Shown here: piece after piece, positions 2,363 through 36,680 of the stretch | Layout of the letters: each line of letters starts with the position of its first letter | Position numbering within the stretch: the first letter of the stretch is position 1 | Source: a virus | Length of the DNA: 43,375 nt | Virus record (IMG/VR): IMGVR_UViG_3300010413_000065 | Location: 1-43,375 of that record | Reading direction: 5' to 3' (one strand) | Program-made: the position numbers and the translations under genes | The notes under the pieces: generated by a model | Database searches by the model: none | What the model was told of the DNA's origin: nothing | The model's input: only the letters and a program-made list of their open reading frames with translations

Positions 2363-2391
2363 AACCGATCCTTAACGATGGAGGTGGCATT

Positions 2392-2883
2392 ATGGCTCAG
2401 GGCCGACCACAAAAATCAGCCGCACTCGATAAGCTTCACGGCAACCCGGGAAAGCGCTCCGGTTCAAAGCGTACACTTCCGGCATCTACCGGTAAGCTCG
2501 GCCTTCCTCGAGGGCTCAACCAAACGGTAAAGCGCCATTGCAGTGAAATGGCCAGATATCTAATAAATTCGGGTGTTCCAATCGCCTTGGTTCGCCCGAT
2601 ATTCGATCGATATTGCCGTCATTACCAAGTGTATAGCAATGCGTGCAAAATCATGGATCAGAACAGCCCGGAACAAGGCATTGACGATAAAATTTTTATT
2701 TTTAAACAAAACCAAGCCCTAAAAGCGGCAAAGGAGAATTCCGATATAATGCTAAAGCTGGAAAAGCAACTTGAATCGATTGTGATGAAAGCGACTCCGC
2801 TATCAGATAATAAAAAGAATCCGCTCGAAGTTTTTATGGAAAAGAATAGCGGGAAGGCTAAAATCATGCGAGGTAGACCATGA
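2392..2883 (+). CDS. terS: terminase small subunit, P27 family
   Basis: This 163-aa protein carries the P27-type signature near its N-terminus: a basic GRPQK segment, then LHGNPGKR at about residues 15-22. A helical body follows with an aromatic-rich segment (FDRYCRHYQVY). Small terminase subunits recognise the phage packaging site and hand the DNA to the large subunit. The large-subunit gene pieces start about 1.4 kb downstream, with five small genes and an attC-like site in between, which is a wider gap than usual. A strong GGAGG precedes the ATG. Its stop overlaps the start of the next gene (ATGA). Confidence 0.88.
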   Translation: MAQGRPQKSAALDKLHGNPGKRSGSKRTLPASTGKLGLPRGLNQTVKRHCSEMARYLINSGVPIALVRPIFDRYCRHYQVYSNACKIMDQNSPEQGIDDKIFIFKQNQALKAAKENSDIMLKLEKQLESIVMKATPLSDNKKNPLEVFMEKNSGKAKIMRGRP

Positions 2884-3077
2884 AAGAGAAAAGATATTTT
2901 TGCTCAACACCGTCCAACAGATCAAGTATCTTTTATGAGATATTCAAGCATGTCCATATGAACAATCCTATTTGGGTTGGCGTAGATTGGGCCAAAGATA
3001 GTGGGATGAATCGTGGAGACATAATCAAGACCGAGAGCAATGTAATCCACGTGCGCTTTAAAACTATTGGCGTATAA
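2880..3077 (+). CDS. small protein whose stop codon overlaps an attC-like site
   Basis: This 65-aa protein is not recognised. It starts in an ATGA overlap with the small terminase gene, so translation is likely coupled. Its stop codon TAA lies inside the R''-like box GTATAAC of the attC-like site at 3072-3166. Stop codons in integron cassettes commonly fall there. It could therefore be a captured cassette gene or an ordinary phage gene beside which a cassette was inserted. Confidence 0.6.
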   Translation: MKEKRYFCSTPSNRSSIFYEIFKHVHMNNPIWVGVDWAKDSGMNRGDIIKTESNVIHVRFKTIGV

Positions 3078-3166
3078 CACTTAAATACAGCAGAGCCTCA
3101 GGGCGGCGCGGCCTTGGTAATTTGAAAGCTTGTTTCGCCCTGGGCTTGCTAATTAAACCGTTATGG
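3072..3166 (+). repeat. isolated attC-like site (site M)
   Basis: On the plus strand the site begins with R''-like GTATAAC (3072-3078) and ends with R'-like GTTATGG (3160-3166). The left arm has AGCAGAGCCTCAGGGCG and the right arm CGCCCTGGGCTTGCT; these pair except for two unpaired bases on the left, like the extrahelical bases of integron attC sites. The outer parts, TAACACTTAAAT and ATTAAACCGTTA, also pair imperfectly. Its orientation is opposite to most of the array at 29663-33536, matching the direction of its neighbouring genes. Confidence 0.8.
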
Positions 3167-3345
3167 TGACTAAAATGACAGTAGATGAATTAGTTTTAGA
3201 AATCAGAAAGAACTTCGAAGAGTCAATATCTCAAAAAACAGGATGGGGCAAAAACGAGATATTGAAACAGCTCGACTTGGCTATCGCTCGTGCGGCGTTG
3301 GCGGCTTTAAAACCATATACGGAAGGGTCAATTCCAGAGAGATAA
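3163..3345 (+). CDS. small helical protein directly after attC-like site
   Basis: This protein of up to 60 aa is not recognised. The ATG at 3163 lies within the R'-like box, as in several cassettes of the main array; a second ATG at 3175 would give 56 aa and neither has a clear ribosome binding site. The sequence is largely helical (VDELVLEIRKNFEES, ILKQLDLAIARAALAALK). Its position just 3' of the attC-like site suggests either an inserted cassette gene or the original downstream neighbour. Confidence 0.55.
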   Translation: MVTKMTVDELVLEIRKNFEESISQKTGWGKNEILKQLDLAIARAALAALKPYTEGSIPER

Positions 3346-3348
3346 ATT

Positions 3349-3813
3349 ATGGATGCAATAATATTTGGCGGCGGCCGGAATCGCTACGATCATTATAAAT
3401 TCGCATGTTCACAAATAGATAATTTTATTATTGTATCGGCAAATCATTGGTCAATGAGCCATTTCGTAAAACCCGATTATATCGCCTTTATCGATCGCAT
3501 CGACGGCCCGATCGGCGCAAGGGTGCGACAGAATGTCGAATTCGCCGCCAGGCATAAAATTAAAACGATCTCGACCGATGGCCATGGCCAGACAACCGGA
3601 GATATTATCATCCTGAATCGATCTAAAAAGAAAATATTCGACTCGGGCCAGCTTGCAACCTATTACGCAATCAAGAATGTATCCGGCCTGGTTTACCTTT
3701 GCGGGGTCGATATGCGCCACGGAACCTGGCAATATACTTCCTGCAGGATGAAATGGAAGGTTTTTCTAAGCTCGCTTTCGATCAATGAAATAATAAGAAT
3801 CAGATGGTTATAG
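3349..3813 (+). CDS. DUF115-like Rossmann-fold protein, probably shortened
   Basis: This 154-aa protein starts with a strand-turn motif, IIFGGGRNRYDH, followed by IIVSANHWS and PDYIAFIDR, then a later segment SGQLATYYAIKNVSGLVYLCGVDM. This order resembles the 6-hydroxymethylpterin pyrophosphokinase MptE-like/DUF115 group, found in sugar-modification loci and in some phages. Members usually continue well past the final G-x-D motif, whereas this one stops after about 30 more residues, so it may be truncated. The assignment rests on motif pattern only. Confidence 0.5.
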   Translation: MDAIIFGGGRNRYDHYKFACSQIDNFIIVSANHWSMSHFVKPDYIAFIDRIDGPIGARVRQNVEFAARHKIKTISTDGHGQTTGDIIILNRSKKKIFDSGQLATYYAIKNVSGLVYLCGVDMRHGTWQYTSCRMKWKVFLSSLSINEIIRIRWL

Positions 3814-3829
3814 ATATGGAGGTTTCATA

Positions 3830-4126
3830 ATGAGCTTCGCAAGAAAAATCAGAAAAAAGAAAGGATATAAAATGAACAAAAGACCAGCAAACGGAAACGG
3901 AATGAACCGCGGCGGCCAGCGGCAAGTAACGATCAATAACGTGAATGATCTTCCGCTAATTCAGTGCTCCAAATGCGGCGGAACGGTCTTTCAGGATTGC
4001 GTACAGGTTCGGGAAGTATCGGCCATCCATCCAGAGAATCCGACCGGCAAGAAGCTCTATGTAAATCAGATCGTCAGGATTTGCACAAAACAGGAATGCA
4101 GGGAGATCCTGCCCAATAACCCATAA
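3830..4126 (+). CDS. zinc-ribbon phage protein
   Basis: This 98-aa protein has a very basic N-terminus (RKIRKKKGYK) and then a zinc-ribbon layout: CSKCGG at about residues 46-51 and a second cysteine pair CTKQEC near residue 86. Small proteins with this C-x2-C ... C-x4-C pattern are common in phage packaging and head regions, but their role is not settled. An internal ATG at 3872 (residue 15) could be an alternative start. GGAGG upstream of 3830 supports the longer form. Confidence 0.65.
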   Translation: MSFARKIRKKKGYKMNKRPANGNGMNRGGQRQVTINNVNDLPLIQCSKCGGTVFQDCVQVREVSAIHPENPTGKKLYVNQIVRICTKQECREILPNNP

Positions 4127-4171
4127 TGTTGTTTAGATTGGATAGATGGATATATAGAGCATTGTGATCAT

Positions 4172-4273
4172 ATGCCCGGCTATGTGGCCGAAATGCTTTT
4201 CGGTAGCGTATCAAGTTCGGATATTGGAGCATTAACCGGCATTTTAGCGGATAGGAAAAATGGGAAAGATTAA
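4172..4273 (+). CDS. possible 33-aa protein overlapping terL start
   Basis: A short reading frame (starts MPGYVAEMLFGS) fills most of the gap between the zinc-ribbon gene and the large terminase and overlaps the start of the latter by 14 bases. The ribosome binding site is poor. The peptide composition looks like normal protein (PGYVAEML, SSDIGALTGILADRK), and the overlap would allow translational coupling. It may equally be chance. Confidence 0.3.
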   Translation: MPGYVAEMLFGSVSSSDIGALTGILADRKNGKD

Positions 4274-5432
4274 AAACCATCCCTCAGTCGAGTATGCCGA
4301 GGCGGTCTTATCCGGCGACCTGATCGCATGTAGATGGATTAAGCTTGCCTGCCAGCGGTTTATCGACGATCTTGAACATGGCCAGGAGCGCGGATTATTC
4401 ATGGATTGGGAAGCCGCGGATCATGCGCTTGAGTTTTTCGGCCATCTGAGATTGTGGAAGGGCCGGGAATACAAGGGATTGCCCTTCGTGCTCGCGCCGC
4501 ATTATCAATTCGCGGTTTCGAATATTATGGGCTGGAAATGGGTTTCGACCGGGTTCAGGCGATTTAAAACCGCATATCTCGAAATGGCCAGGAAGGGCGC
4601 TAAAACAACCTTTGCGGGCGGTGTTGGCGCATATTTTTTTATAGCCGACGGAGAGGATGGGGCCGAATGCTATACCGGTGCGGTTACGAGGGATCAGGCC
4701 AAGCTGGTATGGATTAATATTCAGAATCTTACTAGGCCGTCGATATTCGCGCCGATGATATCATACCTGAAAAACAACCTGAGCATTGAAGCGACATGGT
4801 CGAAATGCGAGCCACTGGCATCCGAGGCCAGGTCGCTCGATGGGCTCGATACTCATTTTGCATCGCTTGACGAGCTTCATGCGCATCCGACGCCGGATGT
4901 TCATGACCTGATCGATGATTCGACCGGGGCGAGATCCCAGCCGTTGATTTTGATCATCACGACGGCCGGGTTCGACCAGACAGGCGTTTGTTACCAGCGC
5001 CGGGAATATTTAACAAAGGTGCTTAAGGGCCTGGTGCAGGATGATTCTTTTTTCGGGCTGATCTATACGCTCGACACAAAAAAGGATTGGCCGGAACTTA
5101 AATCGGCTGATGAGATTCGTAACGGTATTGAAGGCCCGCCGGAAGATGATTGGACTGACGAGGAAAACTGGATTAAGCCGATGCCGGGCCTTTGCGGTAT
5201 CACTCTGTCAGGCAAGCGATACGGAATCGACGAAAAAGGCAATCCGATAGCAGGATATATGACGAAAATCGAGGATGTCAGGAAAAAATGCAAGTATGCC
5301 ATGGAGGTTCCGGCGGCGCAAAATAATTTCCTGACTAAAAGAATGAACGTATGGACGCAACAGGCAACCAGATGGCTTACGCTTGAAATTTGGGACTCTA
5401 ACTATTCAAGGGAGATTTATCAATATGAATGA
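4260..5432 (+). CDS. terL: terminase large subunit, ATPase part (split gene)
   Basis: This 390-aa protein is the ATPase half of a Terminase_1-type large subunit, the packaging motor. The Walker A region is ARKGAKTTF (residues 110-118) and the Walker B/catalytic region is ASLDELHAH (201-209); a coupling-motif region follows with LIITTAGF. It ends with MNVWTQQATRWLTLEIWDSNYS, which in intact homologues leads directly into the nuclease domain. Here a TGA stop at 5430-5432 closes the frame. The nuclease domain begins 75 bases later in the same frame but behind several more stops. The separated parts may assemble, or the gene may be broken. Confidence 0.9.
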   Translation: MGKIKNHPSVEYAEAVLSGDLIACRWIKLACQRFIDDLEHGQERGLFMDWEAADHALEFFGHLRLWKGREYKGLPFVLAPHYQFAVSNIMGWKWVSTGFRRFKTAYLEMARKGAKTTFAGGVGAYFFIADGEDGAECYTGAVTRDQAKLVWINIQNLTRPSIFAPMISYLKNNLSIEATWSKCEPLASEARSLDGLDTHFASLDELHAHPTPDVHDLIDDSTGARSQPLILIITTAGFDQTGVCYQRREYLTKVLKGLVQDDSFFGLIYTLDTKKDWPELKSADEIRNGIEGPPEDDWTDEENWIKPMPGLCGITLSGKRYGIDEKGNPIAGYMTKIEDVRKKCKYAMEVPAAQNNFLTKRMNVWTQQATRWLTLEIWDSNYSREIYQYE

Positions 5433-5542
5433 ATCTAATAGAACATCGGCTGGAAGCGGCGGCCAAGAAGCTTCCGCCGGAATCGAATTCAATTTGGAAA
5501 TTAAAATATGATCCATACAGTCGATTGGCAAAAAACGCTTGA
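5429..5542 (+). CDS. possible 37-aa protein between the terL halves
   Basis: This frame starts in an ATGA overlap with the stop of the ATPase part and runs through the inter-domain gap into the beginning of the nuclease part in another frame. The peptide looks protein-like (RLEAAAKKLPPESNSIW, KLKYDPYSRLAKNA). A second short frame starts at 5425 (28 aa). Upstream GGGAG (5410-5414) could serve either. It could keep ribosomes moving between the two terminase parts. Reality as a protein is uncertain. Confidence 0.35.
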   Translation: MNLIEHRLEAAAKKLPPESNSIWKLKYDPYSRLAKNA

Positions 5543-6221
5543 ACAATACCGCGGCCGCTGGTGTACCGCAGGCGCTGACCTGGCATCGGTGGAAGATCTG
5601 ACTTGTTGCGCCTATCTTTTCCCGCATGACAACGATCGGGAAACCGTTGATTTAATCCTTAGAACGTGGTGCTGTGAAAAAAAGATCCATGATAAAAAGA
5701 ACAAATACCGAGATCAGTATATCGCCTGGGCCGAAGCCGGATGGATTCAGGAAACCGGCGGCGATGCGATCGACTATCATCTGATCAGGAAACAGATCGT
5801 CGAAGATTCGAAAATATTCGATATCGGCCTAATAGGAATCGACCGGGGGCATCAGGGTTTCCAGTTCGCCATGGATTTGATGGAAGAACTCGGGCATACC
5901 GATAAAAATCCTCGGGTGATAGCATGTACGAATCACAAGCCGGATGTGTGGCCGGTGCTTCAGGAATTCGAGCGGCGGCTATTGAGCAAGAAGATCCACC
6001 ATGGCAGTAATCCTATTTTGCGATTCATGGTCGATTCATGCGCTCTATCAAAGCCGGATTCGGATGGAAATTGTAAGATTGACAAAGCCGCGAGCCAGGC
6101 GAAGATAGACGGCGTGATGTCAACGATCTATGCCCTCGGGCGGCTCATGAAGTCGAGGCCGAAAAAATCAGCTTATGAGGGTAAAACCAAAAAGGAAATA
6201 CTTGAACGATTAAAAATGTAA
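5508..6221 (+). CDS. terL: terminase large subunit, nuclease part (split gene)
   Basis: This 237-aa protein corresponds to the RNase H-like nuclease domain of a Terminase_1-type large subunit. It begins with DWQKTLEQYRGRWCTAGADLASVEDLT: the acidic residues D24 and D30 are in the place of the first metal ligands, and the later LIGIDRGHQGFQF and the lysine-rich end match the family. In most phages this is the C-terminal half of one polypeptide of about 550-600 aa. The ATG at 5508 has only a weak GGAAAT ribosome site, so its expression may depend on translation of the small overlapping frame at 5429. Confidence 0.88.
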   Translation: MIHTVDWQKTLEQYRGRWCTAGADLASVEDLTCCAYLFPHDNDRETVDLILRTWCCEKKIHDKKNKYRDQYIAWAEAGWIQETGGDAIDYHLIRKQIVEDSKIFDIGLIGIDRGHQGFQFAMDLMEELGHTDKNPRVIACTNHKPDVWPVLQEFERRLLSKKIHHGSNPILRFMVDSCALSKPDSDGNCKIDKAASQAKIDGVMSTIYALGRLMKSRPKKSAYEGKTKKEILERLKM

Positions 6222-6236
6222 AATAAGGGGATCCGA

Positions 6237-6512
6237 ATGGAAAAACAGGCTAAAGAACAAAAAAAACGAGGCCCGAAACCGAAAAATCACGTAAAAATCA
6301 ACGATTTTAGCACTGAAAATGTCAAAGATGATCCGAGATTGCCTCAAAAATCGCTTTTCAGGCTCGACGAAGTGGCCGATTATTTCGGGTGCTCGGTATC
6401 GTGTATCAGGGTTTGGATTCAACATGGCCATTTAAGAGGCGAGAAAATAGTCGGCGGAATGAGGGTATCCAGGGAGTCGATTTTATCATGCCGCTTTAGA
6501 AAATCGGCCTAA
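6237..6512 (+). CDS. helix-turn-helix DNA-binding protein (MerR/excisionase type)
   Basis: This 91-aa protein has a lysine-rich N-terminal tail (about residues 1-25, KKRGPKPKNHVK) and a winged-helix segment LFRLDEVADYFGCSVSCIRVWIQHGHLRGEKIVGGMRVSRESI. The layout, with a helix-turn-helix followed by a G-rich wing and VSRESI, is that of the MerR-like excisionase/helix_turn_helix_17 group. The ATG follows AGGGG. Placed between terminase and portal, it may bind phage DNA at packaging or regulate late transcription; neither is shown. Confidence 0.75.
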   Translation: MEKQAKEQKKRGPKPKNHVKINDFSTENVKDDPRLPQKSLFRLDEVADYFGCSVSCIRVWIQHGHLRGEKIVGGMRVSRESILSCRFRKSA

Positions 6513-7946: not shown

Positions 7947-8837
7947 ATGTTGATTTCCCGAAAGACATCGATACGGCAAAGGGCGAACAAGCATGATATT
8001 CAAAACAAGGAAACGGAATCGACCATTTATCTTTATGGCGATATCGGCGGATGGTTCGGCGTTGATCCCTTAGAATGGGTCAATCAGTTCAATGCGCTGA
8101 ATTCCGATACGATTCATGTTCGGGTAGATTCGAGCGGCGGCGATGTTTTCGCGGCCCGGGCGATGAAAACCGCCATAATGCAGAGCAAAGCCAAGGTGAT
8201 CGCTCACGTTGACGGCCTGGCGGCATCCGCGGCCAGCTTTTTTATTATGGGTGCCGATGAAATCGAGATTGTCGATGGCGGCTTCCTGATGATCCACAAT
8301 GCGATGAGCTTCATGGATATTTTCGGGTATTTCAACCTTTCCGACCTGGCCAAGCTTTATGAGGATGTCGGTAAGGAAATGAGCCTGCACGAAAAAATAA
8401 ACGAGGCCATAGCATCGGATTATGCGAAGCGAAGCGGTGATGATCTGAAAACGGTTTTAAACTGGATGGCCGAAGAAACGTGGTTTACGGCCCAGGAAGC
8501 GCTCGATAACAATCTTGCCGATCGCATTTATGACGGCGAGCCGGTCGAGGGCAGTTATGATCTTTCGGTATTCGGCCGGGTACCGGATCAAATCCAGGCG
8601 AGAAATACCAAGATCAACAAGAGAACAGTGGAAAAAGCCTTGCGCGACGTCGGGCTGACCAATAAAGAGGCCAAACGCATCATATCGGAAGGTTTCAAGG
8701 AAGAAACTCGCGACGAGAATCGACCGCCGGAACCGGAAGCGGTGGAGGAACAGCGCGACGCTGAAAATCCCGAGCCGAAATATGACCGGGTGGCTCAGCT
8801 CATGGTACGTGCCGAGATTATGGCACCAGCGGCTTGA
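7947..8837 (+). CDS. ClpP-like head maturation protease
   Basis: This 296-aa protein carries a ClpP/SppA-type serine protease domain: IYLYGDIG, VRVDSSGGDVFAA (oxyanion region, about residues 58-70), GLAASAASFF with Ser94 as the likely nucleophile, and FLMIHNA with His117. The C-terminal third after residue 200 is charged and likely disordered, as is usual for head proteases that also cleave themselves. The enzyme would trim the capsid scaffold domain. GGGGGAA precedes the ATG at 7947. Confidence 0.94.
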   Translation: MLISRKTSIRQRANKHDIQNKETESTIYLYGDIGGWFGVDPLEWVNQFNALNSDTIHVRVDSSGGDVFAARAMKTAIMQSKAKVIAHVDGLAASAASFFIMGADEIEIVDGGFLMIHNAMSFMDIFGYFNLSDLAKLYEDVGKEMSLHEKINEAIASDYAKRSGDDLKTVLNWMAEETWFTAQEALDNNLADRIYDGEPVEGSYDLSVFGRVPDQIQARNTKINKRTVEKALRDVGLTNKEAKRIISEGFKEETRDENRPPEPEAVEEQRDAENPEPKYDRVAQLMVRAEIMAPAA

Positions 8838-8863
8838 AAATTCTAAAATTCGGAGGTTAAGAA

Positions 8864-10171
8864 ATGAAAACTTTGACACAATACCGGGAAGATATCAAAA
8901 ACCTGATGAAAAAGGTCGCCGATATCGATGCCCAATGCGTAAACCAGGGCAGGGAAATAACCGAGGCCGAGCTCGCGCTCAAGAATGAAATTCTCGACGA
9001 GGTTGAGAATATTCGGAAAATCGTCGCCGCCATGGAGCGCCATGAGCGCATCCAGAAGGCGATCGACGGCCCGGCGGAACCGGCACAAACAGTTCAGTCA
9101 CCTTCCAGGCCCGAAAGGGCCGAGGATCGATCCCGGGATCGGTTTAACAGCCTCGGCGAACAGCTTTCAGCGGTAATTCGGGCCGCAACACCGGGCGGAA
9201 GCCTTGATCCGAGGCTTTTGAACGCTACCGGCATGAGCGAGGGTGTTAATTCTGATGGCGGTTTCCTCATCCAGCAGGATTTCACCCAAATGATGGTAGA
9301 AGACCTTTTCGATAACAGCCTGATTTTGAGCCAGTGCGAGCAGATCCCAATCTCGTCAAGCTCGAACAGCATCAAGGTGCCTGGCTATGATGAAACCTCG
9401 CGGGCTTCGACAAGGTTCGGTGGGGTAGTAATTTATCATGTCGGTGAAGGCGGAACGATAACCAAGAGCAAGCCCAAATTCAGGAATGTGGAGCTCAATC
9501 TCCATAAACTCGCTGGGCTTTGCTACCTGACCGAGGAAATGGTACAGGATGCGCCCGCCATGGAATCGAGAATATCGAGCGCATTTACGAAAGCGATCAA
9601 CTTCCAGGTGCAGGATGATATCATCAACGGTACCGGTGCGGGCATGGCGCTCGGCGTTATGAATGCCGGATCTCTTGTCACGGTGGCCAAGGAAACAAAC
9701 CAGGGTGCCGCGACTATCCTGCCCGAGAACATCGTCAATATGTATTCTCGCCGGTTCGCCGCTGAAACAGGAAATTATGCCTGGTATTATAACCAGGATA
9801 TCGAGCCGCAACTATTTACCATGACGCTTCAGGGCGGAACGGCCGGAACGCCGATATTCATGCCGCCCGGCGGCTTGAGTGATACGCCGTATGCGCGGAT
9901 TATGGGCCGGCCGGCATATGCTATCGAACAATGCCAGACGCTGGGAACAGCCGGTGATATTATTTTCGGCAACTTCCGCGATGGATATGTCACTGCCAAC
10001 AAGGGCGGAATCAGGCAGGATATTTCAATCCATGTCCAGTTCCTCACGGATGAGCAGACTTTGAGGTTCATACTCAGGTTCGACGGCCAGCCGTGGCGGG
10101 CAAGCGCATTGACTCCGGCAAAGGGATCTAATACGCAATCCCATTTCATCGTGCTGGCCGACCGCTCATAA
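8864..10171 (+). CDS. major capsid protein, HK97 fold
   Basis: This 435-aa protein has a charged helical N-terminal region (residues 1-90, coiled coil), corresponding to the scaffolding delta domain, then a linker and the HK97-fold part beginning near residue 120 (GMSEGVNSDGGFLIQQDF). Family landmarks include QCEQIPISSSSNSIKVPGYDE, LTEEMVQDAP and a late YVTANKGGIRQDISIHVQF. It follows the portal and protease as in HK97. The protease probably cuts at the end of the delta domain. GGAGG precedes the start. Confidence 0.95.
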   Translation: MKTLTQYREDIKNLMKKVADIDAQCVNQGREITEAELALKNEILDEVENIRKIVAAMERHERIQKAIDGPAEPAQTVQSPSRPERAEDRSRDRFNSLGEQLSAVIRAATPGGSLDPRLLNATGMSEGVNSDGGFLIQQDFTQMMVEDLFDNSLILSQCEQIPISSSSNSIKVPGYDETSRASTRFGGVVIYHVGEGGTITKSKPKFRNVELNLHKLAGLCYLTEEMVQDAPAMESRISSAFTKAINFQVQDDIINGTGAGMALGVMNAGSLVTVAKETNQGAATILPENIVNMYSRRFAAETGNYAWYYNQDIEPQLFTMTLQGGTAGTPIFMPPGGLSDTPYARIMGRPAYAIEQCQTLGTAGDIIFGNFRDGYVTANKGGIRQDISIHVQFLTDEQTLRFILRFDGQPWRASALTPAKGSNTQSHFIVLADRS

Positions 10172-27088: not shown

Positions 27089-29197
27089 ATGGCGAAAGTA
27101 TCATTGATCATACCCGGCCGATGCGAGCCCTATTTTCAGCAAACGATTAATTCGGCATGCGAGCGAGCGGCCGGTGATTATGAAATAATCGCGATTATTG
27201 ACGGCCCGGGCCAGGATCCGATTACGGCGCCTAACGATCGGGTAAAGATAATCGAACTATCAGAATCTATCGGCCAGCGGGCAGGATATAACTTCGGCGT
27301 TAGGGAATCATCCGGCGATATCGTTGGAAAAATCGATGCCCATGCCTTAATGAGCGAGGCGTGGGATATAGAAATCGCAAAGAATATGCCCGATAAAACG
27401 GTGATCCTGCCCGAAATGCGCAACCTCGATGTTGAATTGTGGAAGGAAAAGACCGGCAAGGGCAAGCGTACCCACTTTATGTATCCAGGGCTCGATCTAT
27501 ATTGCCATTTTTGGTCGGACTATAAGAGGCGGCCAGCGGCAAAATATGCCTTTCCCGAGGTTATGACCGGTCAGGGATCATGCTGGTTTACAACAAGAGA
27601 ATGGAACGATTATATCGGCCTGCTTGATGAAGGGGTCGGGTCGTGGGGAAATGTCGGCATCGAGGTTTCGCTCCGCACCTGGCTTTGCGGCGGGCAACAG
27701 TTATTGAATAAAAACGTATGGCAGGCGCACTGGTTTCGGCGCGACGAGGGCGGCTTTACTTATCCCATGAACGGCCGGAATGTAAAAAAAGCGCATGATT
27801 ATACTTGGAACAATTATTATTTCAAAGATGATGCTTTCGAGCATCAGGTTCGGCCCTTCTATTGGTATATCGATCGTTTCGCTCCGGTACCGAGCTGGGA
27901 AGCATACTTGACCGATCGGTTTCGATCACCGAGATATATCGTTTATTATACAGATAGCCAGATTGAGGATAGGCTTGCAAATGCTGTCAGGAAAAATATC
28001 AAGAAGTGGGCAGGGCCTATACCAATTATCTCGGTAAGCCAAGCGCCTTTGGACTTCGGCGAAAACATCTGCATAGGCGAACAGCCGCGCAAATACAAAA
28101 GCATCTACGAGGCCGTTTTACGCGGCGTGAGCGCCGCGCCTGAAGGGGCGGTGATCTATCTGCTCGAACACGATGTTTTTTATCATCCATCGCATTTCGC
28201 TTTTTTACCGGCCGATAGGGATTCGATGTATTTTAACCGCGAGCGGTATTATTATATTTTAGGCAAGGATTCATTTTATCCGGCCCGGGGCAGGAGAGCT
28301 TTAAGTCAGTGCGTCGCTTACAGAGAGGCTATTATAAGGCATGCCGAAGAAAGGCTATCCTCCATAGCCGGGGATGATATAACCGAGCGCTGGGATGATC
28401 TGGAAAAGCGATCGAGCGTAAAATATGAGAATTTCAGAAGCGACCGACCGAATGTCGATATCCGGCATGGAAATAACTTCACCGGCCATGGAACATATAA
28501 AAAAGACTATGCGAAGGATCGAAAAAAAGGCGTTGTCAATTTGCCGGGATGGGGTCGCCCGAAGCATTTTCAGTCTAAAACCGGATACAAGGAATTAATA
28601 GGCGATCCGGCCGAGTATCTGCATAATAAATATAATAAAGAATCCGCCCAGGTGAGCCCGGTAAGGATACCGAGATTCACCCGAGCCGACCTGGCGTCAT
28701 TGTTTAATAATCTCGGATATAAGCGCGGGGCCGAGATCGGCGTCAGGGAAGGCGCTTTTTCAAAAGTCCTTTGCTCGAAAAATATCGGCCTCGAGCTCAG
28801 GTGCATCGATCCATGGGCGGAATATCACGAATATAATCAACAGAAGGTAACTCAGGCGAAAGCGGATGCCCAATATCGAAAGGCCGCGGAAATACTCGAG
28901 CAATATAACGCGACATTGATTCGGAAAACGAGTATGGACGCCGTGAAGGATATTCCGCTCGAATCGCTCGATTTTATTTATATCGACGCCAATCATACTT
29001 TTGACTTTGTTATGCAGGATGTGATTGAGTGGGCGAAGCGGGTCAGGCCCGGCGGCATGGTAGCGGGCCATGATTATTTTCGGTTTCGAAACGCCGGAGT
29101 CGTGCCTGCGGTCGATGCTTATACCCATGCACATCAAATAACCGAATGGTTTATAACCGATGAGAAGGAAGCTTCTTTTTTTTGGGTAAAGAGGTGA
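27089..29197 (+). CDS. three-part glycosyltransferase/methyltransferase
   Basis: This 702-aa protein begins at the ATG at 27089. Residues 1 to about 280 are a GT-A (family 2-like) glycosyltransferase: VSLIIPGRCEPYFQQTINS, IIAIIDGPGQD, SIGQRAGYNFGV and GKIDAHALMS, where D-A-H stands for the usual DxD. About residues 285-460 form a second sugar-transferase-like part (RYIVYYTDSQIEDRL, VIYLLEHDVFYHPSHF). About residues 530-702 are a class I methyltransferase of Methyltransf_24 type (GAEIGVREGAFSKVL, LRCIDPWAEY, LDFIYIDANHTFDFVMQD). It may modify virion or host-surface glycans. It directly follows the serine-repeat protein. Confidence 0.8.
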   Translation: MAKVSLIIPGRCEPYFQQTINSACERAAGDYEIIAIIDGPGQDPITAPNDRVKIIELSESIGQRAGYNFGVRESSGDIVGKIDAHALMSEAWDIEIAKNMPDKTVILPEMRNLDVELWKEKTGKGKRTHFMYPGLDLYCHFWSDYKRRPAAKYAFPEVMTGQGSCWFTTREWNDYIGLLDEGVGSWGNVGIEVSLRTWLCGGQQLLNKNVWQAHWFRRDEGGFTYPMNGRNVKKAHDYTWNNYYFKDDAFEHQVRPFYWYIDRFAPVPSWEAYLTDRFRSPRYIVYYTDSQIEDRLANAVRKNIKKWAGPIPIISVSQAPLDFGENICIGEQPRKYKSIYEAVLRGVSAAPEGAVIYLLEHDVFYHPSHFAFLPADRDSMYFNRERYYYILGKDSFYPARGRRALSQCVAYREAIIRHAEERLSSIAGDDITERWDDLEKRSSVKYENFRSDRPNVDIRHGNNFTGHGTYKKDYAKDRKKGVVNLPGWGRPKHFQSKTGYKELIGDPAEYLHNKYNKESAQVSPVRIPRFTRADLASLFNNLGYKRGAEIGVREGAFSKVLCSKNIGLELRCIDPWAEYHEYNQQKVTQAKADAQYRKAAEILEQYNATLIRKTSMDAVKDIPLESLDFIYIDANHTFDFVMQDVIEWAKRVRPGGMVAGHDYFRFRNAGVVPAVDAYTHAHQITEWFITDEKEASFFWVKR

Positions 29198-29574: not shown

Positions 29575-29645
29575 GATACTGAATCGGCGCTATCCTGATT
29601 GAGGTTTTGATTATTGACGAAAGTTATAAGAATCGGTTCGGGGGG

Positions 29646-29669
29646 GTAGCGTTGATTTACGGGTTATGC
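29646..29669 (-). repeat. half attC at the distal end of the array
   Basis: Reading the minus strand, GCATAACCCGTAAATC begins at 29669 and is identical to the R''-L'' start of site K (33301 downward). The right half with an R' box is not found; instead the sequence runs into a C-rich stretch and the late terminator. The array thus appears to end in a truncated attC, as if a deletion or illegitimate junction joined it to the phage late operon. Confidence 0.6.
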
Positions 29670-29852
29670 ATACCAGTGTTCGAATTCTGGTACAGATAAT
29701 ATAAGCCTCGCCTTTTCACCAAGAGAGTCTTTGCGGGTGGCCACATATGAAACGAACTCGTATAGCAGATCGTCCTCTTTTCTATGAGCCATTTCGCTGT
29801 CAAGGCTGGATTTTATAGCATCAATCGCTGATAATATTTCTGACTTTTTCAT
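29664..29852 (-). CDS. cassette 12: small helical protein
   Basis: This 62-aa protein, starting MKKSEILSAIDAIKSS, is mostly helical and charged; it is not recognised. The ATG at 29852 follows GGAG. A longer start at 29870 overlaps the R' box of site A and is less likely. The stop codon TAA falls inside the R''-like box GCATAAC of the half attC. It is the last gene of the array. Confidence 0.6.
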   Translation of the reverse strand: MKKSEILSAIDAIKSSLDSEMAHRKEDDLLYEFVSYVATRKDSLGEKARLILSVPEFEHWYA

Positions 29853-29866
29853 TGCAAATCTCCGAT

Positions 29867-29962
29867 GCATAACAAGTTAATCAGTGGGCAAGTGGGCGAT
29901 ACGCTATTCCAAACTGCCGTGGCCGCCCGGCCCACTTGTTCCACTGGATTTAATTGTTAGAT
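29867..29962 (-). repeat. attC-like site A
   Basis: On the minus strand: R'' ATCTAAC (29962-29956) and R' GTTATGC (29873-29867). The arms CAGTGGAACAAGTGGGC and GCCCACTTGCCCACTG pair with one or two extra bases. The outer TAACAATTAAATC and GATTAACTTGTTA also pair. It is one of the clearest sites in the array. Confidence 0.88.
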
Positions 29963-30143
29963 GTCTGCATTCAAAATAATTTATATTATGCAATCTCTTT
30001 ACCATAGATCTTCCGGTCTTGTTAATTTCTACAGATATTCTTTTGTCCTCGTACCCATATTGGGATAGCATCTTGTTTGGTGCTATATTGGGGCTTTCGA
30101 TCACATCCCCGCCAATTGTGTGTAAAATTAAACGATACGGCAT
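29904..30143 (-). CDS. cassette 11: unknown small protein
   Basis: This 79-aa protein from the ATG at 30143 (MPYRLILHTIGGDVIES) is not recognised; its first half looks like a mixed strand-helix domain. The reading frame passes through the R'' box of site A and ends inside the attC (last residues SSGTSGPGGHGSLE are attC-encoded). The start lies 6 bases after the R' box of site B and lacks a ribosome binding site, so it might be translated from a leaderless or coupled start. Confidence 0.55.
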   Translation of the reverse strand: MPYRLILHTIGGDVIESPNIAPNKMLSQYGYEDKRISVEINKTGRSMVKRLHNINYFECRHLTIKSSGTSGPGGHGSLE

Positions 30144-30148
30144 GATAC

Positions 30149-30250
30149 ACCTAACGTGGGCGCTCACCTGACAAAAAAGCGACCACCATAAGTAAAAGTA
30201 TTAACTAATTTTCCCCGCTTTTTTGTTCTGAGTGTAGCGGATTGTTATGA
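30149..30250 (-). repeat. attC-like site B
   Basis: On the minus strand: R'' TCATAAC (30250-30244) and R' GTTAGGT (30155-30149). The arms CTCAGAACAAAAAAGCG and CGCTTTTTTGTCAGGTGAG pair apart from two extra bases. The core GAACAAAAAAGCGGGG is shared with site H, so the two sites belong to one attC family. Confidence 0.87.
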
Positions 30251-30443
30251 AATCTTTGATATTACCAAGAAGATGCCATATCCCATAAAACACAAAAAAC
30301 AAAACCCATATGGAATTAATAACCAGCCATATGTCGATCGTGTAAGCTGGAAGGGTTTCTCCTATTCTGGGTAACAGCGTAATTGCGACATATCCCAGAG
30401 TGATACATACGCACCAAATGAAATTGCTATTCAAAATTTTCAT
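30201..30443 (-). CDS. cassette 10: two-helix membrane protein
   Basis: This 80-aa protein starts MKILNSNFIWCVCITLGYVAITLLP and has a second hydrophobic segment, IDIWLVINSIWVLFFVFYGIWHLLG, so two transmembrane helices are expected with a short loop between them. The C-terminal residues after FITIRYTQ are encoded by site B. An in-frame ATG at 30458, inside the R' box of site C, is an alternative start. Small membrane proteins are common integron cassette products; the function is unknown. Confidence 0.6.
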   Translation of the reverse strand: MKILNSNFIWCVCITLGYVAITLLPRIGETLPAYTIDIWLVINSIWVLFFVFYGIWHLLGNIKDFITIRYTQNKKAGKIS

Positions 30444-30454
30444 GCGAGACCCTT

Positions 30455-30517
30455 TCATAACGCCAAAGCTAACGCGCGCCCGATGTTTGGGCGTCGCCGT
30501 TTAGCGCCGTGTTAGGC
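30455..30517 (-). repeat. attC-like site C
   Basis: On the minus strand: R'' GCCTAAC (30517-30511), a perfect RYYYAAC match, and R' GTTATGA (30461-30455). Arms: GCTAAACGGCGACGCCC against GGGCGCGCGTTAGC, with extra bases on one side. At 63 bases it is a typical short attC. Confidence 0.87.
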
Positions 30518-31104
30518 ATTTTACACCCCCTTGCAATGCCCACAAGGTACTCTGCAAAAGCTTGCGGGGTGTGGTTTGCCTCTCGTTTAGATAATGTGGG
30601 CTTGTTTGCATCTTTGCCGCGTTGGTCGTGAAAGCCTACCTGATGAGAGCCAACAGGACGTTCCCAAAAGGCCGGAACGGGTGAACCGTAACAGTATAGC
30701 CACGTTGCCTTGTTTGCACGATGCCCGTAAGCGGATTGCCACACTTCGCAGACCCATCCACCATCGATACACATCTGCCACCCCCTACCACGAGGTCTTT
30801 CAAGGCCGTATTTTGCCCATGCCCTACTTTTTGCCGGATGCTCCAAAACGCCGCCACAACGCCTGACTGTTTCGAGTGCGAACTTGAACAAGCCGCCGTC
30901 ATTGCCGGGGCGGTTGTGCTCACCACCCCACCGAGCAAAGTTGACAGCCGCGAGTGCACCCCATAACTGACATGGTGGATGGGCAACAACCGGGAAACTA
31001 CCAGAATAATTCAAGGCGTTTCTTTCCACATCGTAACAGTCGCACCCCGGCATGTTTTTATATATGCTGTCTTTCATAACGAACAGTATTGCTACTTCCT
31101 GCAT
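30469..31104 (-). CDS. cassette 9: phage-type protein with HPPC-x-W-G motif
   Basis: This 211-aa protein starts near the R' box of site D. It contains FPVVAHPPCQLWGAL (about residues 35-49), a GGVLEHPAKSRAWAKYGL segment and a later KATWLYCYGSPVPAFW. This order marks a protein family seen in phages of several Gram-negative hosts; its HPPC motif recalls DNA cytosine methyltransferases, but no activity is established. The last residues, MPNTALNGDAQTSGAR, are encoded by the attC. It is the largest cassette gene and looks phage-derived, which is unexpected inside a cassette. Confidence 0.7.
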   Translation of the reverse strand: MQEVAILFVMKDSIYKNMPGCDCYDVERNALNYSGSFPVVAHPPCQLWGALAAVNFARWGGEHNRPGNDGGLFKFALETVRRCGGVLEHPAKSRAWAKYGLERPRGRGWQMCIDGGWVCEVWQSAYGHRANKATWLYCYGSPVPAFWERPVGSHQVGFHDQRGKDANKPTLSKREANHTPQAFAEYLVGIARGCKMPNTALNGDAQTSGAR

Positions 31105-31106
31105 AT

Positions 31107-31164
31107 GCCTAACACGGTTTTTACCTGCCCGGTAGTTCGGGTCCGGTACAAAAAATTGTTAGAA
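31107..31164 (-). repeat. attC-like site D
   Basis: On the minus strand: R'' TTCTAAC (31164-31158) and R' GTTAGGC (31113-31107), a perfect GTTRRRY match. The arms TACCGGACCCG and CGGGCAGGTA pair with extra bases, and TTTTT/AAAAA extends the stem. It lies between the inverted two-gene cassette and the 211-aa gene. Confidence 0.85.
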
Positions 31165-31202
31165 ATATTTTCAATTTTTTTAAAAAAACTTGCATTTTTC
31201 CC

Positions 31203-31231
31203 TTGACAAACGCACCTATTAGGTACATGAT
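31203..31231 (+). promoter_or_regulatory. promoter and operator of the inverted cassette
   Basis: TTGACA (31203-31208) and CATGAT (31226-31231) are 17 bases apart. The spacer holds the perfect palindrome ACCTATTAGGT (31214-31224), a likely operator for the downstream helix-turn-helix protein. A cassette with its own promoter is typical of integron-borne toxin-antitoxin genes. Confidence 0.65.
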
Positions 31232-31261
31232 GGAATCAAACAACAACGAAAGGGGTAAAAA

Positions 31262-31444
31262 ATGCAAATGACAGACTCTCAAAAAAACGGAATGCTCAAC
31301 TTTCACGAGAGAGCGGCAAGGGCTTACGCAAAATATGGGAAAACCGAAGACGCTGCTTCTGCGAAAAAACATGCTGACAAAATCAAATCTAAAATGTATT
31401 GGAGCGAAAACCTTAAAAGATACGTAACAATTCCGGAAGATTAG
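31262..31444 (+). CDS. cassette 8, first gene: small basic protein
   Basis: This 60-aa protein is not recognised. It is helical and charged (FHERAARAYAKYGKTEDAASAKKHADKIKSKMYW) and preceded by AAAGGGG. It is read in the opposite direction from the other cassettes, from its own promoter, and is followed 7 bases later by a helix-turn-helix gene. The pair resembles a toxin-antitoxin or a repressor with partner, but neither product matches a known toxin by eye. Confidence 0.6.
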   Translation: MQMTDSQKNGMLNFHERAARAYAKYGKTEDAASAKKHADKIKSKMYWSENLKRYVTIPED

Positions 31445-31451
31445 AAATTTT

Positions 31452-31658
31452 ATGAAGTCTAAAAACCCCAAAGAGGCCCGTGAATATCTGGGCCTCAACC
31501 AAACCCAAATGGCCTCCACAATGGGTGTGCATCGCAACCTATGGCTGAAATGGGAACGCGAGGAACAGCGCATCACCGCCGCCCCGTTGCGGCTCATTGA
31601 GGTGTTGCTATGGCTAAAATCAAAAAACATGCTCGTTGACTACCTCGATCATTTCTAA
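31452..31658 (+). CDS. cassette 8, second gene: helix-turn-helix regulator
   Basis: This 68-aa protein has an XRE/Cro-type helix-turn-helix: AREYLGLNQTQMASTMGVHRNLWLKWEREEQRITAA (about residues 9-44), followed by a helix ending WLKSKNMLVDYLDHF. It probably represses its own promoter at the palindrome 31214-31224. Its stop codon lies in the R' box of site E. It could be an antitoxin, or a phage-type regulator carried as a cassette. Confidence 0.75.
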   Translation: MKSKNPKEAREYLGLNQTQMASTMGVHRNLWLKWEREEQRITAAPLRLIEVLLWLKSKNMLVDYLDHF

Positions 31659-31748
31659 CGGTTTAATCACCTGAAAACATGGCGAACAGGCAATCAAAAT
31701 TACCACCAAAGACCGGCCCTGTTTTTCTGGTGGATTTGATTGTTATGC
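31653..31748 (-). repeat. attC-like site E
   Basis: On the minus strand: R'' GCATAAC (31748-31742) and R' GTTAGAA (31659-31653). The left arm AATCAAATCCACCAG and AAAAACAGG pairs with CCTGTT and TTTTCAGGTGATTAAAC on the right, with several extra bases. Both flanking genes end inside it because they converge. Confidence 0.83.
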
Positions 31749-31919
31749 CTGCAAACATTCCATGCAGGTAGCGACTTCTTCACTTTTGAAAGATTTGTTT
31801 GCTGGCACATCTTTATTGCATTTCGTCCAAACCACATAAGTTGATGGATCACCAACGGCAATTTGGCCTCCTTCACATTTGTGGATTACCCCATCTGGTG
31901 ATTGATATAGATGATTCAT
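31743..31919 (-). CDS. cassette 7: small cysteine-containing protein
   Basis: This 58-aa protein starts MNHLYQSPDGVIHKCEGG and ends ATCMECLQA, with cysteines at about 15, 33, 52 and 55 that could bind one zinc ion. AAGGAGGT lies 6 bases before the ATG, the strongest ribosome site in the array. The stop TAA is in the R'' box of site E. No known family is recognised. Confidence 0.65.
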   Translation of the reverse strand: MNHLYQSPDGVIHKCEGGQIAVGDPSTYVVWTKCNKDVPANKSFKSEEVATCMECLQA

Positions 31920-31932
31920 AAGTACCTCCTTG

Positions 31933-31988
31933 GCATAACAATGCGTTAAGCGGCAGGCGATTTATACCTGACGCAGTTGATTTTATGC
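31933..31988 (-). repeat. attC-like site F
   Basis: On the minus strand: R''-like GCATAAA (31988-31982, last base deviating from AAC) and R' GTTATGC (31939-31933). Arms AACTGCGTCAGG and CCTGCCGCTTAACGCA pair with a three-base bulge. At 56 bases it is short and slightly degenerate. Confidence 0.78.
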
Positions 31989-32197
31989 TGGCCAAGTTCA
32001 ACGCCACAATCAGGGCAAATTTGCCATGTGTTCGCCTGTCCGACTTGAATGGATGGTTGTTGAGCGCCGTGATTCTTGCACGGGCGCTGGTGACAACACG
32101 ACCCTGAGTAGCCGCATGTGTAAGGATACCCTATACGGACATAATTACAGGGCGGCCCTACAGAACAAACTGTTTCTTGAAAATCTCCTGTTGGCAT
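31946..32197 (-). CDS. cassette 6: cysteine-rich, probable zinc-binding protein
   Basis: This 83-aa protein starts at 32197 behind GGAGGT. It has about nine cysteines: CSVGPPC, CGYSGSCC, CKNHG and ICPDCG. The spacing suggests two zinc sites or disulfides. Final residues (NCVRYKSPAA) are encoded by site F. A longer start at 32242 overlaps the R' region of site G and is less likely. It is not recognised; similar cysteine-rich small proteins occur in three other cassettes here. Confidence 0.62.
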   Translation of the reverse strand: MPTGDFQETVCSVGPPCNYVRIGYPYTCGYSGSCCHQRPCKNHGAQQPSIQVGQANTWQICPDCGVELGQHKINCVRYKSPAA

Positions 32198-32208
32198 TTT
32201 ACCTCCAA

Positions 32209-32306
32209 GCTCAACAACAATTAGGTGAGACGCCGCAGCCACATCTCACAAGTTTAAATTTTTACATCCGCCCGGTGGCTGCGGTCTGCTCTACCGGGTG
32301 TTATGC
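32209..32306 (-). repeat. attC-like site G
   Basis: On the minus strand: R'' GCATAAC (32306-32300) and R' GTTGAGC (32215-32209). The arms AGACCGCAGCCAC and GTGGCTGCGGCGTCT pair with one extra base, and the loop is AT-rich. An alternative R' three bases upstream (GTTGTTG) is possible. Confidence 0.83.
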
Positions 32307-32340
32307 GCGTTGCGTTGATTGCCGGATGCGCGCCCCCCGG

Positions 32341-32466
32341 CTATAACCCTTCAACTGGAAATTTAACACCTTTAATAGTAACCATAGGTCTACCAGACTT
32401 AGGAGCACCTTTAGAGCTAAAATCCTCACCGAGCATCACCCCCTTTCGAGCCTTAAATAAGCGCAT
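32341..32466 (-). CDS. cassette 5: 41-aa protein
   Basis: This very small protein begins MRLFKARKGVMLGEDFSSKG and ends in a TIKGVKFPVEGL strand. Its start lies inside the R' box of site H (GTTATGCGC), so no separate ribosome site is present. It is the only reading frame that spans this cassette. The N-terminus is basic and the remainder looks like a short beta hairpin. No family is recognised. Confidence 0.5.
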   Translation of the reverse strand: MRLFKARKGVMLGEDFSSKGAPKSGRPMVTIKGVKFPVEGL

Positions 32467-32558
32467 AACGTGCTGTTCACTTGACAAAAAAGCGAACAGA
32501 CAGTTCAAATTGTTAAAAGCGCCCCGCTTTTTTGTTCAAGTGCAATAGCGGGTTATGT
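32463..32558 (-). repeat. attC-like site H
   Basis: On the minus strand: R'' ACATAAC (32558-32552) and R' GTTATGC (32469-32463). The arms CACTTGAACAAAAAAGCG and CGCTTTTTTGTCAAGTG pair with a single extra base, the best arm match in the array. It shares its core with site B. Confidence 0.9.
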
Positions 32559-32699
32559 GCAGTACGGATTTGCACCATACATGACCCGCCCACCTCCTCG
32601 GAACGGGTCGATATCAGATAGAACCACGCAAAGCATGGAACCGGTCACGGGAGAACGCCTTAACTGATTTTCTGTGTCTACCTTTTCCACCATGCACAT
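32553..32699 (-). CDS. cassette 4: 48-aa protein
   Basis: This small protein begins MCMVEKVDTENQLRRS and ends NPYCT, with the stop in the R'' box of site H. Its ATG overlaps the R' box of site I. The body has a central SMLCVVLSDIDPFRGGG segment. It is not recognised and may not be expressed; it is listed because it fills the cassette exactly. Confidence 0.45.
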   Translation of the reverse strand: MCMVEKVDTENQLRRSPVTGSMLCVVLSDIDPFRGGGRVMYGANPYCT

Positions 32700-32737
32700 A
32701 ACGTGGCGCTAACACGCCACGGCCAAATGATTATTTG
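32696..32737 (-). repeat. attC-like site I, short and degenerate
   Basis: On the minus strand R' is GTTATGT (32702-32696). The stem CGTGGCG/CGCCACG is perfect but short. The expected R'' box is degenerate (around CAAATAA, 32737-32731, at the stop of the 74-aa gene). It is accepted because it sits exactly between two cassettes, but alone it would be doubtful. Confidence 0.5.
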
Positions 32738-32955
32738 CAATGGCACACACACGGTTCATGCCCACACACAATACATAGATACCCGTGGCCGTGGTCGCCG
32801 TTGAATGGGGTGTTATAAAGGTTTTGCCAAACTTCTGAGGCGAGTTTTGAGTCTGTTGGGATACCCAAGCAATATTGTTTACCATTAGCTAATTTGGGGA
32901 TATGAACCCAAAGGCCATCAGAACCGGCTTGCAATTCCACTACTATTTTTTTCAT
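32731..32955 (-). CDS. cassette 3: small protein with C-terminal cysteine cluster
   Basis: This 74-aa protein starts MKKIVVELQAGSDGLWVHIP with a good AAAGGAGG site right after the R' box of site J. The first 40 residues look like a compact beta fold. The end, CIVCGHEPCVCHC, holds five cysteines and two histidines and is likely metal-binding. It is not recognised. Confidence 0.65.
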   Translation of the reverse strand: MKKIVVELQAGSDGLWVHIPKLANGKQYCLGIPTDSKLASEVWQNLYNTPFNGDHGHGYLCIVCGHEPCVCHCK

Positions 32956-32967
32956 TTGAAGCCTCCT

Positions 32968-33019
32968 TTATAACATATAAGTTAAGACGCAGGCAGATAC
33001 TTACTGCATTGCGTTGATG
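32968..33019 (-). repeat. attC-like site J
   Basis: On the minus strand: R''-like CATCAAC (33019-33013) and R' GTTATAA (32974-32968). The arms ACGCAATGCAG and CTGCCTGCGT pair with one extra base. At 52 bases it is short, and its R'' box differs from the others in the array. Confidence 0.72.
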
Positions 33020-33227
33020 GATTGGTACAGGCACATGTTTTGTTTAAACAAAAAACCGAAGATTTTTGCCTGTCGGCTTGAACGTTTTGTTCTTGAGCCG
33101 ACTTGGATACGAAATCCAAACAAGATCCTATACCACTAATGTGAAGACGGCCGAGACCACAAATGCCGCCTTGTTTTTCTAGAAACTCCTCCAAATTGGC
33201 ACAACTTTTATTGTTACAATAGACCAT
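32982..33227 (-). CDS. cassette 2: cysteine-rich small protein
   Basis: This 81-aa protein, starting MVYCNNKSCANLEEFLEKQ behind GGAGG, has eight cysteines in pairs: YCNNKSC near the start and FCLNKTCACTNPSTQC near the end. The two pairs CNNKSC and CLNKTC look like internal repeats of one zinc-binding unit. The end is encoded by site J. It is not recognised. Confidence 0.63.
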   Translation of the reverse strand: MVYCNNKSCANLEEFLEKQGGICGLGRLHISGIGSCLDFVSKSAQEQNVQADRQKSSVFCLNKTCACTNPSTQCSKYLPAS

Positions 33228-33243
33228 TAGAACCTCCAAGGCT

Positions 33244-33301
33244 CAAGAACATGGTAATCACGGGATCGTCGGTTTGGTTCCCGTGGATTTACGGGTTATG
33301 C
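33244..33301 (-). repeat. attC-like site K
   Basis: On the minus strand: R'' GCATAAC (33301-33295) and R'-like GTTCTTG (33250-33244). The arms GTAAATCCACGGGA and TCCCGTGATTAC pair with one extra base. Its first 16 bases recur at the array's far end (29669 downward), where the second half is missing. Confidence 0.8.
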
Positions 33302-33474
33302 TGTCTTGTTAAAGCTAAACTGCACCGGTGCGGTAAGCAACCCCTGGCGCTCATTATATCCTGACGAGTTGGGGTTTTAGCGTTTCCATTTTCATCAAGA
33401 CAAGCTCCAATGAATTTGTTGAAATTTTCTGACAGTCGCTCAATAGCTATTTTTAAAATATCAATATCTTCCAT
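33289..33474 (-). CDS. cassette 1: small helical protein
   Basis: This 61-aa protein starts MEDIDILKIAIERLSENFN behind GAGGT and is helical at first; the later part has TPTRQDIMSARGCLPHRCS. The last residues (TRQHNP) are encoded by site K. A longer frame to 33525 would read through site L and is less likely. It is the first gene of the array after the Pc-like promoter. No family is recognised. Confidence 0.57.
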   Translation of the reverse strand: MEDIDILKIAIERLSENFNKFIGACLDENGNAKTPTRQDIMSARGCLPHRCSLALTRQHNP

Positions 33475-33486
33475 TTCTACCTCAAA

Positions 33487-33536
33487 GCATAACAAACGAT
33501 ATTGAAAAAATTTTTGCAATATCATAAAAGTTAAAG
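33487..33536 (-). repeat. site L, attC- or attI-like entry site of the array
   Basis: On the minus strand R' is GTTATGC (33493-33487). A stem GATATTG/CAATATC encloses an A/T loop, and an R''-like CTTTAAC lies at 33536-33530. It is the first site behind the Pc-like promoter and before the first cassette, the place of attI in an integron. It is AT-rich and simpler than the other sites. Confidence 0.55.
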
Positions 33537-36360: not shown

Positions 36361-36401
36361 TGTTTCCTCAATCTCGTTATATGTCCTTAAGTCACCAACG
36401 G

Positions 36402-36680
36402 TTAAGCTGACGGGTGCCCAGCTTTTTGGGCATCCTCGTCAAGCGATTTGTTAGCGTCTAAAGAATCCCCGCAAAAAGGACAGTATTTCATGATTACCGG
36501 GACTTCTATGACTTTTTTCTGCCCAACGGCCTCAACGATCAGATTCAAATTGTAAATCGTTTTTCCGGTCGAAAAGTTAAGGCCACATGGAAAATTAGCG
36601 GAATGGATTTGTTTACCCTTCCATCCGTCCGCGTATTTCTCTTTAAACTTTCTCGGAATGTCGGTTAAACACTCACACAT
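36402..36680 (-). CDS. first gene of the leftward early operon, zinc-knuckle protein
   Basis: This 92-aa protein contains an N-terminal CECLTDIPRKFKEKY and a central CGLNFSTGKTIYNLNL, and near residue 70 the zinc-ribbon-like YCPFCGDSL. GGAGG precedes the ATG. Phage proteins with a late 'CPFCG' are common in early operons and have no set role. It is the first gene behind the leftward promoter at 36885-36913. Confidence 0.6.
   Translation of the reverse strand: MCECLTDIPRKFKEKYADGWKGKQIHSANFPCGLNFSTGKTIYNLNLIVEAVGQKKVIEVPVIMKYCPFCGDSLDANKSLDEDAQKAGHPSA

Follow-up and report, generated by a model that had tools for sequence, protein, structure and literature searches.

A probable integrase-less array of integron-type gene cassettes in a tailed phage genome

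Integrons are well known as gene stores of bacteria, and anti-phage defences are among the genes they hold. Clusters of attC sites lacking integron integrases (CALINs) also occur in phages. Qi et al. 2023 report 17 CALINs among 10,705 phage genomes, with examples from the virulent Tetrasphaera phage TJE1, Polaribacter phage P12002L and Pseudoalteromonas phage PH101, and recombination with IntI1 at five of the six phage attC sites examined (PMC9892861). Here we describe a comparable locus in IMG/VR virus record IMGVR_UViG_3300010413_000065, a tailed phage encoding terminase, portal, capsid and tape-measure genes; the whole record, 43,375 bases, was analysed and is hereafter called the window. 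We consider it likely that the window carries a CALIN of about 12 canonically oriented cassettes, ending in a broken half-site, with two further attC sites elsewhere in the genome. This reading rests on attC anatomy, cassette layout, patchy distribution and the sharing of cassette families among phages. A first-pass annotation of the same DNA knew of no described array of this size in a virulent-looking siphovirus. That claim of no precedent has to be withdrawn: a 2023 study had already described integrase-less attC clusters in virulent phages and their activity with IntI1 (PMC9892861).

The virulent-phage CALINs share with the window small genes separated by attC sites, the lack of an integrase and a cargo that includes methyltransferase genes (putative ones in the window), while TJE1 and PH101 also share its canonical cassette orientation (PMC9892861). 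TJE1 has 3 attC sites and 4 open reading frames (ORFs) against about 12 sites in the window, although the arrays of Qi et al. may exceed the figures shown. The window differs from these CALINs in its two lone attC sites and in two cassette genes that are common to unrelated phages. Temperate-phage integrons, such as those of Vibrio anguillarum phage Va_90-11-286_p16 and Shewanella prophage M16-3, likewise place attC cassettes in phage DNA. However, these have an intI of their own, and the Vibrio array corresponds to part of its host's integron (PMC9892861), whereas the window has neither an integrase nor a recognisable host match. The sedentary chromosomal and class 1 integrons that we compared (L207, L218, L132-L139) agree with the window in boxes, L arms, extrahelical bases, signature A and gene orientation. 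They are bacterial, carry intI and mostly have similar attC sites within an array, whereas attC sites in the window differ between neighbours. What looks new here is the size of the array, the extra sites and the phage-family cassettes shared between unrelated phages; for a phage gene family shared in this way there was no report in the literature searched, preprints and subscription papers lying outside its scope.

The array occupies positions 33536-29867, between tail genes that reach 29.5 kb on its left and an HNH gene, early genes and replication genes right of 33.6 kb (Table 1). Twelve palindromes, all on the minus strand, separate its small genes, which bears out the first-pass annotation of an integron-type cassette array at 29,663-33,536. 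Its site boundaries need slight correction: the tenth site ends at 30455 rather than 30467, and the sixth at 32212. Integron attC anatomy is present in 10-11 of the 12 palindromes: R''/R' boxes, and L''/L' arms with two extrahelical bases six pairs apart on the cassette strand. The boxes, RYYYAAC-like for R'' and GTTRRRY-like for R', are clear in 9-10 of the array sites and in both lone sites; R'' is degenerate at 33031 and 31995, and R' is weak in one array site and at 36393. The extrahelical bases lie in the 5' arm (gene orientation), as in class 1 attC sites, and arm pairing is intact in the best sites although their sequences differ. The predicted bottom-strand fold is slightly more stable in 9 of the 12 sites, which is weak evidence.

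Statistical tests were built from bacterial sites. attC sites from class 1 integrons on plasmids yielded a first covariance model (R1), which, together with an integron-integrase query, provided attC sites from integrons of diverse bacteria; 43 bacterial attC sites then made up a second model (R2). A separate descriptor combined box weights derived from bacterial attC sites only with arm geometry (a 5' arm carrying two extrahelical bases at a spacing of six pairs), and its background was taken from 40 dinucleotide shuffles of the genome. Five sites in the genome have descriptor scores of at least 28; every one of them is a minus-strand site within the array, and the shuffles yield 0.025 such sites per genome. 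At 24 or above there are six in the array and one outside, against 0.2 per shuffle. Two signature bases, which the descriptor does not score, provide an independent check. Among 152 bacterial attC sites, 143 (94%) have A as the second base of the six-pair arm, and 139 (91%) have A as the second extrahelical base. Both are A in all nine scored window sites (seven in the array, plus 3072 and 36393), whereas background matches have A in 17 of 48 (35%) and 14 of 48 (29%) for the two bases. R1, built from class 1 attC sites alone, recognises integrons in many other genera but is too narrow for the array, where its matches are weak. With R2, matches are significant at 30517-30455 in the array and at 36456-36393 outside it; one array site thus passes, and the others were identified by their anatomy. 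By definition a CALIN holds at least two neighbouring covariance-model attC sites with no integron integrase close by, and R2 supplies one such site within the array. In the covariance-model check proposed with the first-pass annotation, 27.0 bits in the array and 27.9 bits outside are clear matches beyond background, while most sites fall below threshold. Rfam at its gathering threshold gave no match in the window, and we know of no attC family in Rfam. Anatomy, descriptor, signature bases and the layout test described below agree with the annotation's integron-type sites and canonically oriented cassettes. We regard the identity of the sites as attC as established at the level of sequence, and their recombination activity as predicted.

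Table 1. Coordinates of attC-like sites and cassette genes in the window (EHB, extrahelical bases; descriptor, descriptor score)
Feature	Coordinates	Strand	Remarks
Palindrome 1	33487..33536	-	CTTTAAC..GTTATGC; R' at start of cassette gene 1; decayed or atypical
attC-like site 2	33244..33301	-	weak R' GTTCTTG; arm pairs 10/12; EHB C/A
attC-like site 3	about 32968..33031	-	degenerate R''; L arms AT(C)AACGCA(A)TGC by hand alignment
attC-like site 4	32696..32818	-	long (123); descriptor 20.8; signature bases A/A
attC-like site 5	32463..32558	-	arm pairs 12/12; EHB G and A; descriptor 30.2
attC-like site 6	32212..32306	-	R' GTTGTTG; arms GT(A)GAGCAG(A)CCGC by hand alignment
attC-like site 7	about 31933..31995	-	decayed left side; degenerate R''
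attC-like site 8	31653..31748	-	arm pairs 11/12; descriptor 28.6
attC-like site 9	31107..31164	-	genome's best; descriptor 32.3; R1 11.7 bits
attC site 10	30455..30517	-	R' GTTATGA; R2 27.0 bits, E 3e-4; descriptor 28.9
attC-like site 11	30149..30250	-	descriptor 24.6
attC-like site 12	29867..29962	-	arm pairs 11/12; descriptor 29.8
Left attC half	29640..29669	-	broken end of array; R'' GCATAAC and L'' present, right half missing
Lone attC	36393..36456	-	R2 27.9 bits, E 2e-4; end of gene 36402-36680
Lone attC-like site	3072..3166	+	between genes 2880-3077 and 3163-3345; descriptor 25.5; signature A/A
Cassette gene 1	33289..33483	-	orphan; no match in family searches
Cassette gene 2	32982..33227	-	orphan, Cys-rich; no relative in viral, genome, phage or plasmid collections
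Cassette gene 3	32731..32955	-	orphan; no relative in the same collections
Cassette gene 4	32551..32700	-	short ORF from R' box; minus-strand translation
Cassette gene 5	32341..32467	-	short ORF from R' box; minus-strand translation
Cassette gene 6	31946..32200	-	orphan, Cys-rich; no relative in the same collections
Cassette gene 7	31743..31919	-	orphan; no relative in the same collections
Cassette 8	31205..31658	+	opposite strand; two ORFs (31262-31444; 31452-31658, Xre-type helix-turn-helix)
Cassette gene 9	30469..31104	-	phrog_12600; likely C5-methyltransferase-like fold; cassette in other phages too
Cassette gene 10	30201..30458	-	small membrane protein, predicted by eye
Cassette gene 11	29904..30155	-	orphan
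Cassette gene 12	29664..29870	-	phrog_10733; recurs as cassette in phage L241

The genes are laid out as cassettes. Each preceding gene ends in or near R'', and the next begins at or close behind R' (within 20 bases for most sites), which is the canonical cassette orientation; an automatic orientation test scored eight window genes as canonical, none as reversed and two as unclear. Cassette 8 is the exception to the rule of one gene in the same orientation, and a promoter-like TTGACA was seen by eye upstream of it. It resembles the self-promoted toxin-antitoxin cassettes of chromosomal integrons, with no toxin recognised. Searches with the whole array as DNA gave no match in phages and plasmids, and concatenated-query searches for the cassette proteins in viral and genome contigs, phages and plasmids also came back empty, with limited power because contig scans need exact short peptides. 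Among the window proteins, PADLOC returned only a weak helix-turn-helix match. Further along the genome, a 729-amino-acid ORF after the tail genes shows, by eye, an FkbM-like methyltransferase domain at its C-terminal end (28660-29197).

Two further attC-like sites lie outside the array, each at the end of a gene; the first-pass annotation had not noticed them. The one at 36393 closes a gene that is preceded by a GTTAGCG box at 36703-36697 and a ribosome-binding-like AGGAGG. Box, gene and attC are arranged as a single inserted cassette would be. Entry of cassettes at non-classical attG sites has been described (Loot et al. 2024, cited in PMC12444791 and PMC11023631), and attG-mediated insertion would account for lone cassettes like 36402-36680 with its GTTAGCG box. 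Four other candidates (39385, 27229, 25128 and 36697) were rejected for weak pairing, wrong signature bases or positions away from gene ends.

Two of the cassette genes belong, by sequence comparison, to phage protein families that other phages carry as cassettes with other neighbours. Among 80 viral contigs examined with the phrog_12600 gene, 17 have attC-like sites flanking it. By covariance model, attC sites accompany it in 15 of 35 records, against none in 15 relatives of the window's capsid, tail or early module, and 13 of the attC-bearing records carry a terminase, portal, adaptor or tail gene. DNA at least 80% identical between such contigs forms a single block of about 600 bases. In three of them (L061, L066 and L067) the common DNA starts inside one attC site and stops at the GCATAAC box of the next, beyond which the contigs are unrelated. 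These three share exactly one cassette, as expected if it moved as a unit bounded by the boxes. This pattern was seen in relatives; in the window itself, similarity to L052 and L241 is gene-wide only. The likeness between its phrog_12600 gene and the nearest relative, in L052, runs from start codon to gene end only, and L052 has no attC site at this gene. On the gene tree, attC-flanked copies are scattered (12 changes, against 14 expected at random), and at least four of the changes are forced by well-supported branches, so that phrog_12600 would have become a cassette, or lost its attC site, more than once. The phrog_10733 gene has a 57% relative in L241, between attC sites of 28.1 and 19.7 bits that were found by both methods; its neighbours there differ. 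The tail chaperone and ligase genes of L241 mark it as a different phage, and it has no other gene in common with the window. The recurrence of these two genes in unrelated viruses suggests that phages may share genes via the bacterial integron system.

The first-pass annotation held that, if the covariance model gave only background matches and related phages kept exactly the same genes and palindromes in the same order, the sites would be ordinary intergenic hairpins. Among the sampled phages related through the capsid, tail or early module, none has such an array in the stretches examined, these relatives being distant (about 45-66% protein identity) and incomplete. Absence of the array from them fits an acquired, variable island.

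Cassette arrays occur in other viral contigs as well. Two of them, at 3347-8646 of L096 and 2184-6447 of G024 (the L061 record), have about 10-11 attC sites each by covariance model, similar in size to the window array. The phage contig L065 (IMGVR_UViG_3300031616_000017), whose products include a tail protein, encodes at 8676-9698 an integron integrase (TIGR02249, 473 bits; 55% identical to IntI1) beside an attC array whose first cassette is phrog_12600, and is apparently a complete integron in a phage. In the viral arrays L053-L130, a sample biased towards phrog_12600 carriers, cassette genes run mostly against attC polarity (29 reversed, 6 canonical, 13 unclear); the counts are 11 reversed and 85 canonical in bacterial integrons, and none and eight in the window.

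The phrog_12600 product is the largest cassette protein of the window (211 amino acids). Its PPCQ and EHP motifs are invariant in 50 family sequences, and its structure is predicted with a mean pLDDT (predicted local distance difference test) of 89. Foldseek gives a weak but consistent match to C5-cytosine methyltransferases (E 5e-3, probability about 0.8). In a VIA structure comparison, Z was 8.5 for DNMT3A and about 8 for M.HhaI, a Z near 8 being on its own no proof; a search against PDB sequences returned nothing useful. Because the structural similarity is combined with conserved motifs, a methyltransferase-like fold is likely for the model, and we infer a methyltransferase-like function. 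About 770 sampled proteobacterial genomes contained nine phrog_12600 matches, one of them beside an attC-like site, on a contig where the remaining ORFs, on inspection by eye, appear phage-like.

Several observations weigh against the window being a CALIN. Most array sites, ten of the twelve, are not significant with R2 and are recognised by anatomy; two have a degenerate R'', and palindrome 1 is without the pattern of two extrahelical bases. Searches found no integrase gene in the record and no attI site, for which no general model exists. For most cassette proteins the collections searched yielded no relatives, so that these searches point to no bacterial source. Close relatives bearing another version of the same array are not known, and neither excision nor rearrangement was directly seen. 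Some of this would be accounted for if a block of a host chromosomal integron had entered once, by illegitimate or homologous recombination, and had decayed with no further cassette traffic: such a relic fits the half-site at 29669, the degenerate R'' boxes, the low covariance scores of most sites and the lack of an integrase. We nevertheless think this unlikely, as a single entry does not sit well with two more attC sites outside the array, on both strands, with arm pairing kept in the best sites despite their different sequences, or with two cassette genes from phage families that unrelated phages have in common as cassettes.

Ordinary intergenic hairpins, for example terminators between small phage genes, are disfavoured and in our view very improbable. 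Every site is indeed a hairpin between genes, and attC sites may also act as weak terminators, according to PMC9892861. Terminators would not be expected to show the boxes, the strand-specific extrahelical pair six pairs apart or the two signature A bases. Two sites match the covariance model, and the rest of the genome has almost none by descriptor. Since the record is a metagenomic contig known from assembly alone, a chimeric assembly, with a bacterial cassette array fused to a phage contig, might also be suspected. This we consider extremely improbable: the array is internal, with tail genes to its left and HNH, early and replication genes to its right, two more attC sites lie inside phage modules, and other phage contigs that bear terminase, portal or tail genes hold cassettes of the same kind.

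If the window holds a CALIN, the question is how its cassettes would move. No IntI-like match was found in the record, which thus lacks the intI that a complete integron has in the same element. As no tyrosine or serine recombinase was found either, in a record that may be incomplete, the phage may be virulent, and its cassettes could move only with an integrase provided in trans. Many hosts encode an integron integrase, and the first-pass annotation likewise inferred capture of the cassettes through a host enzyme during infection. In a model that we find plausible, an integron integrase supplied by the host, or by a co-infecting phage like L065, would recombine the folded bottom strand of attC. 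Cassettes would enter at attC sites or at secondary attG-type GTT sites, and phages and host integrons could exchange them. The cargo is probably accessory or directed at counter-defence, as the methyltransferase-like phrog_12600 might be.

We further speculate that phages keep a cassette pool of their own. Families of the phrog_12600 and phrog_10733 type would have become cassettes in several independent events and been traded between unrelated phages via host or phage integrases, with arrays serving as stores; we see the chances of this as evenly balanced. Found in phages both with and without attC sites, phrog_12600 offers a concrete case for how ordinary genes become cassettes. If this is true, large phage arrays, together with exchange at exact boundaries, would make the integron a two-way route for genes, between phage and host and between phage and phage.

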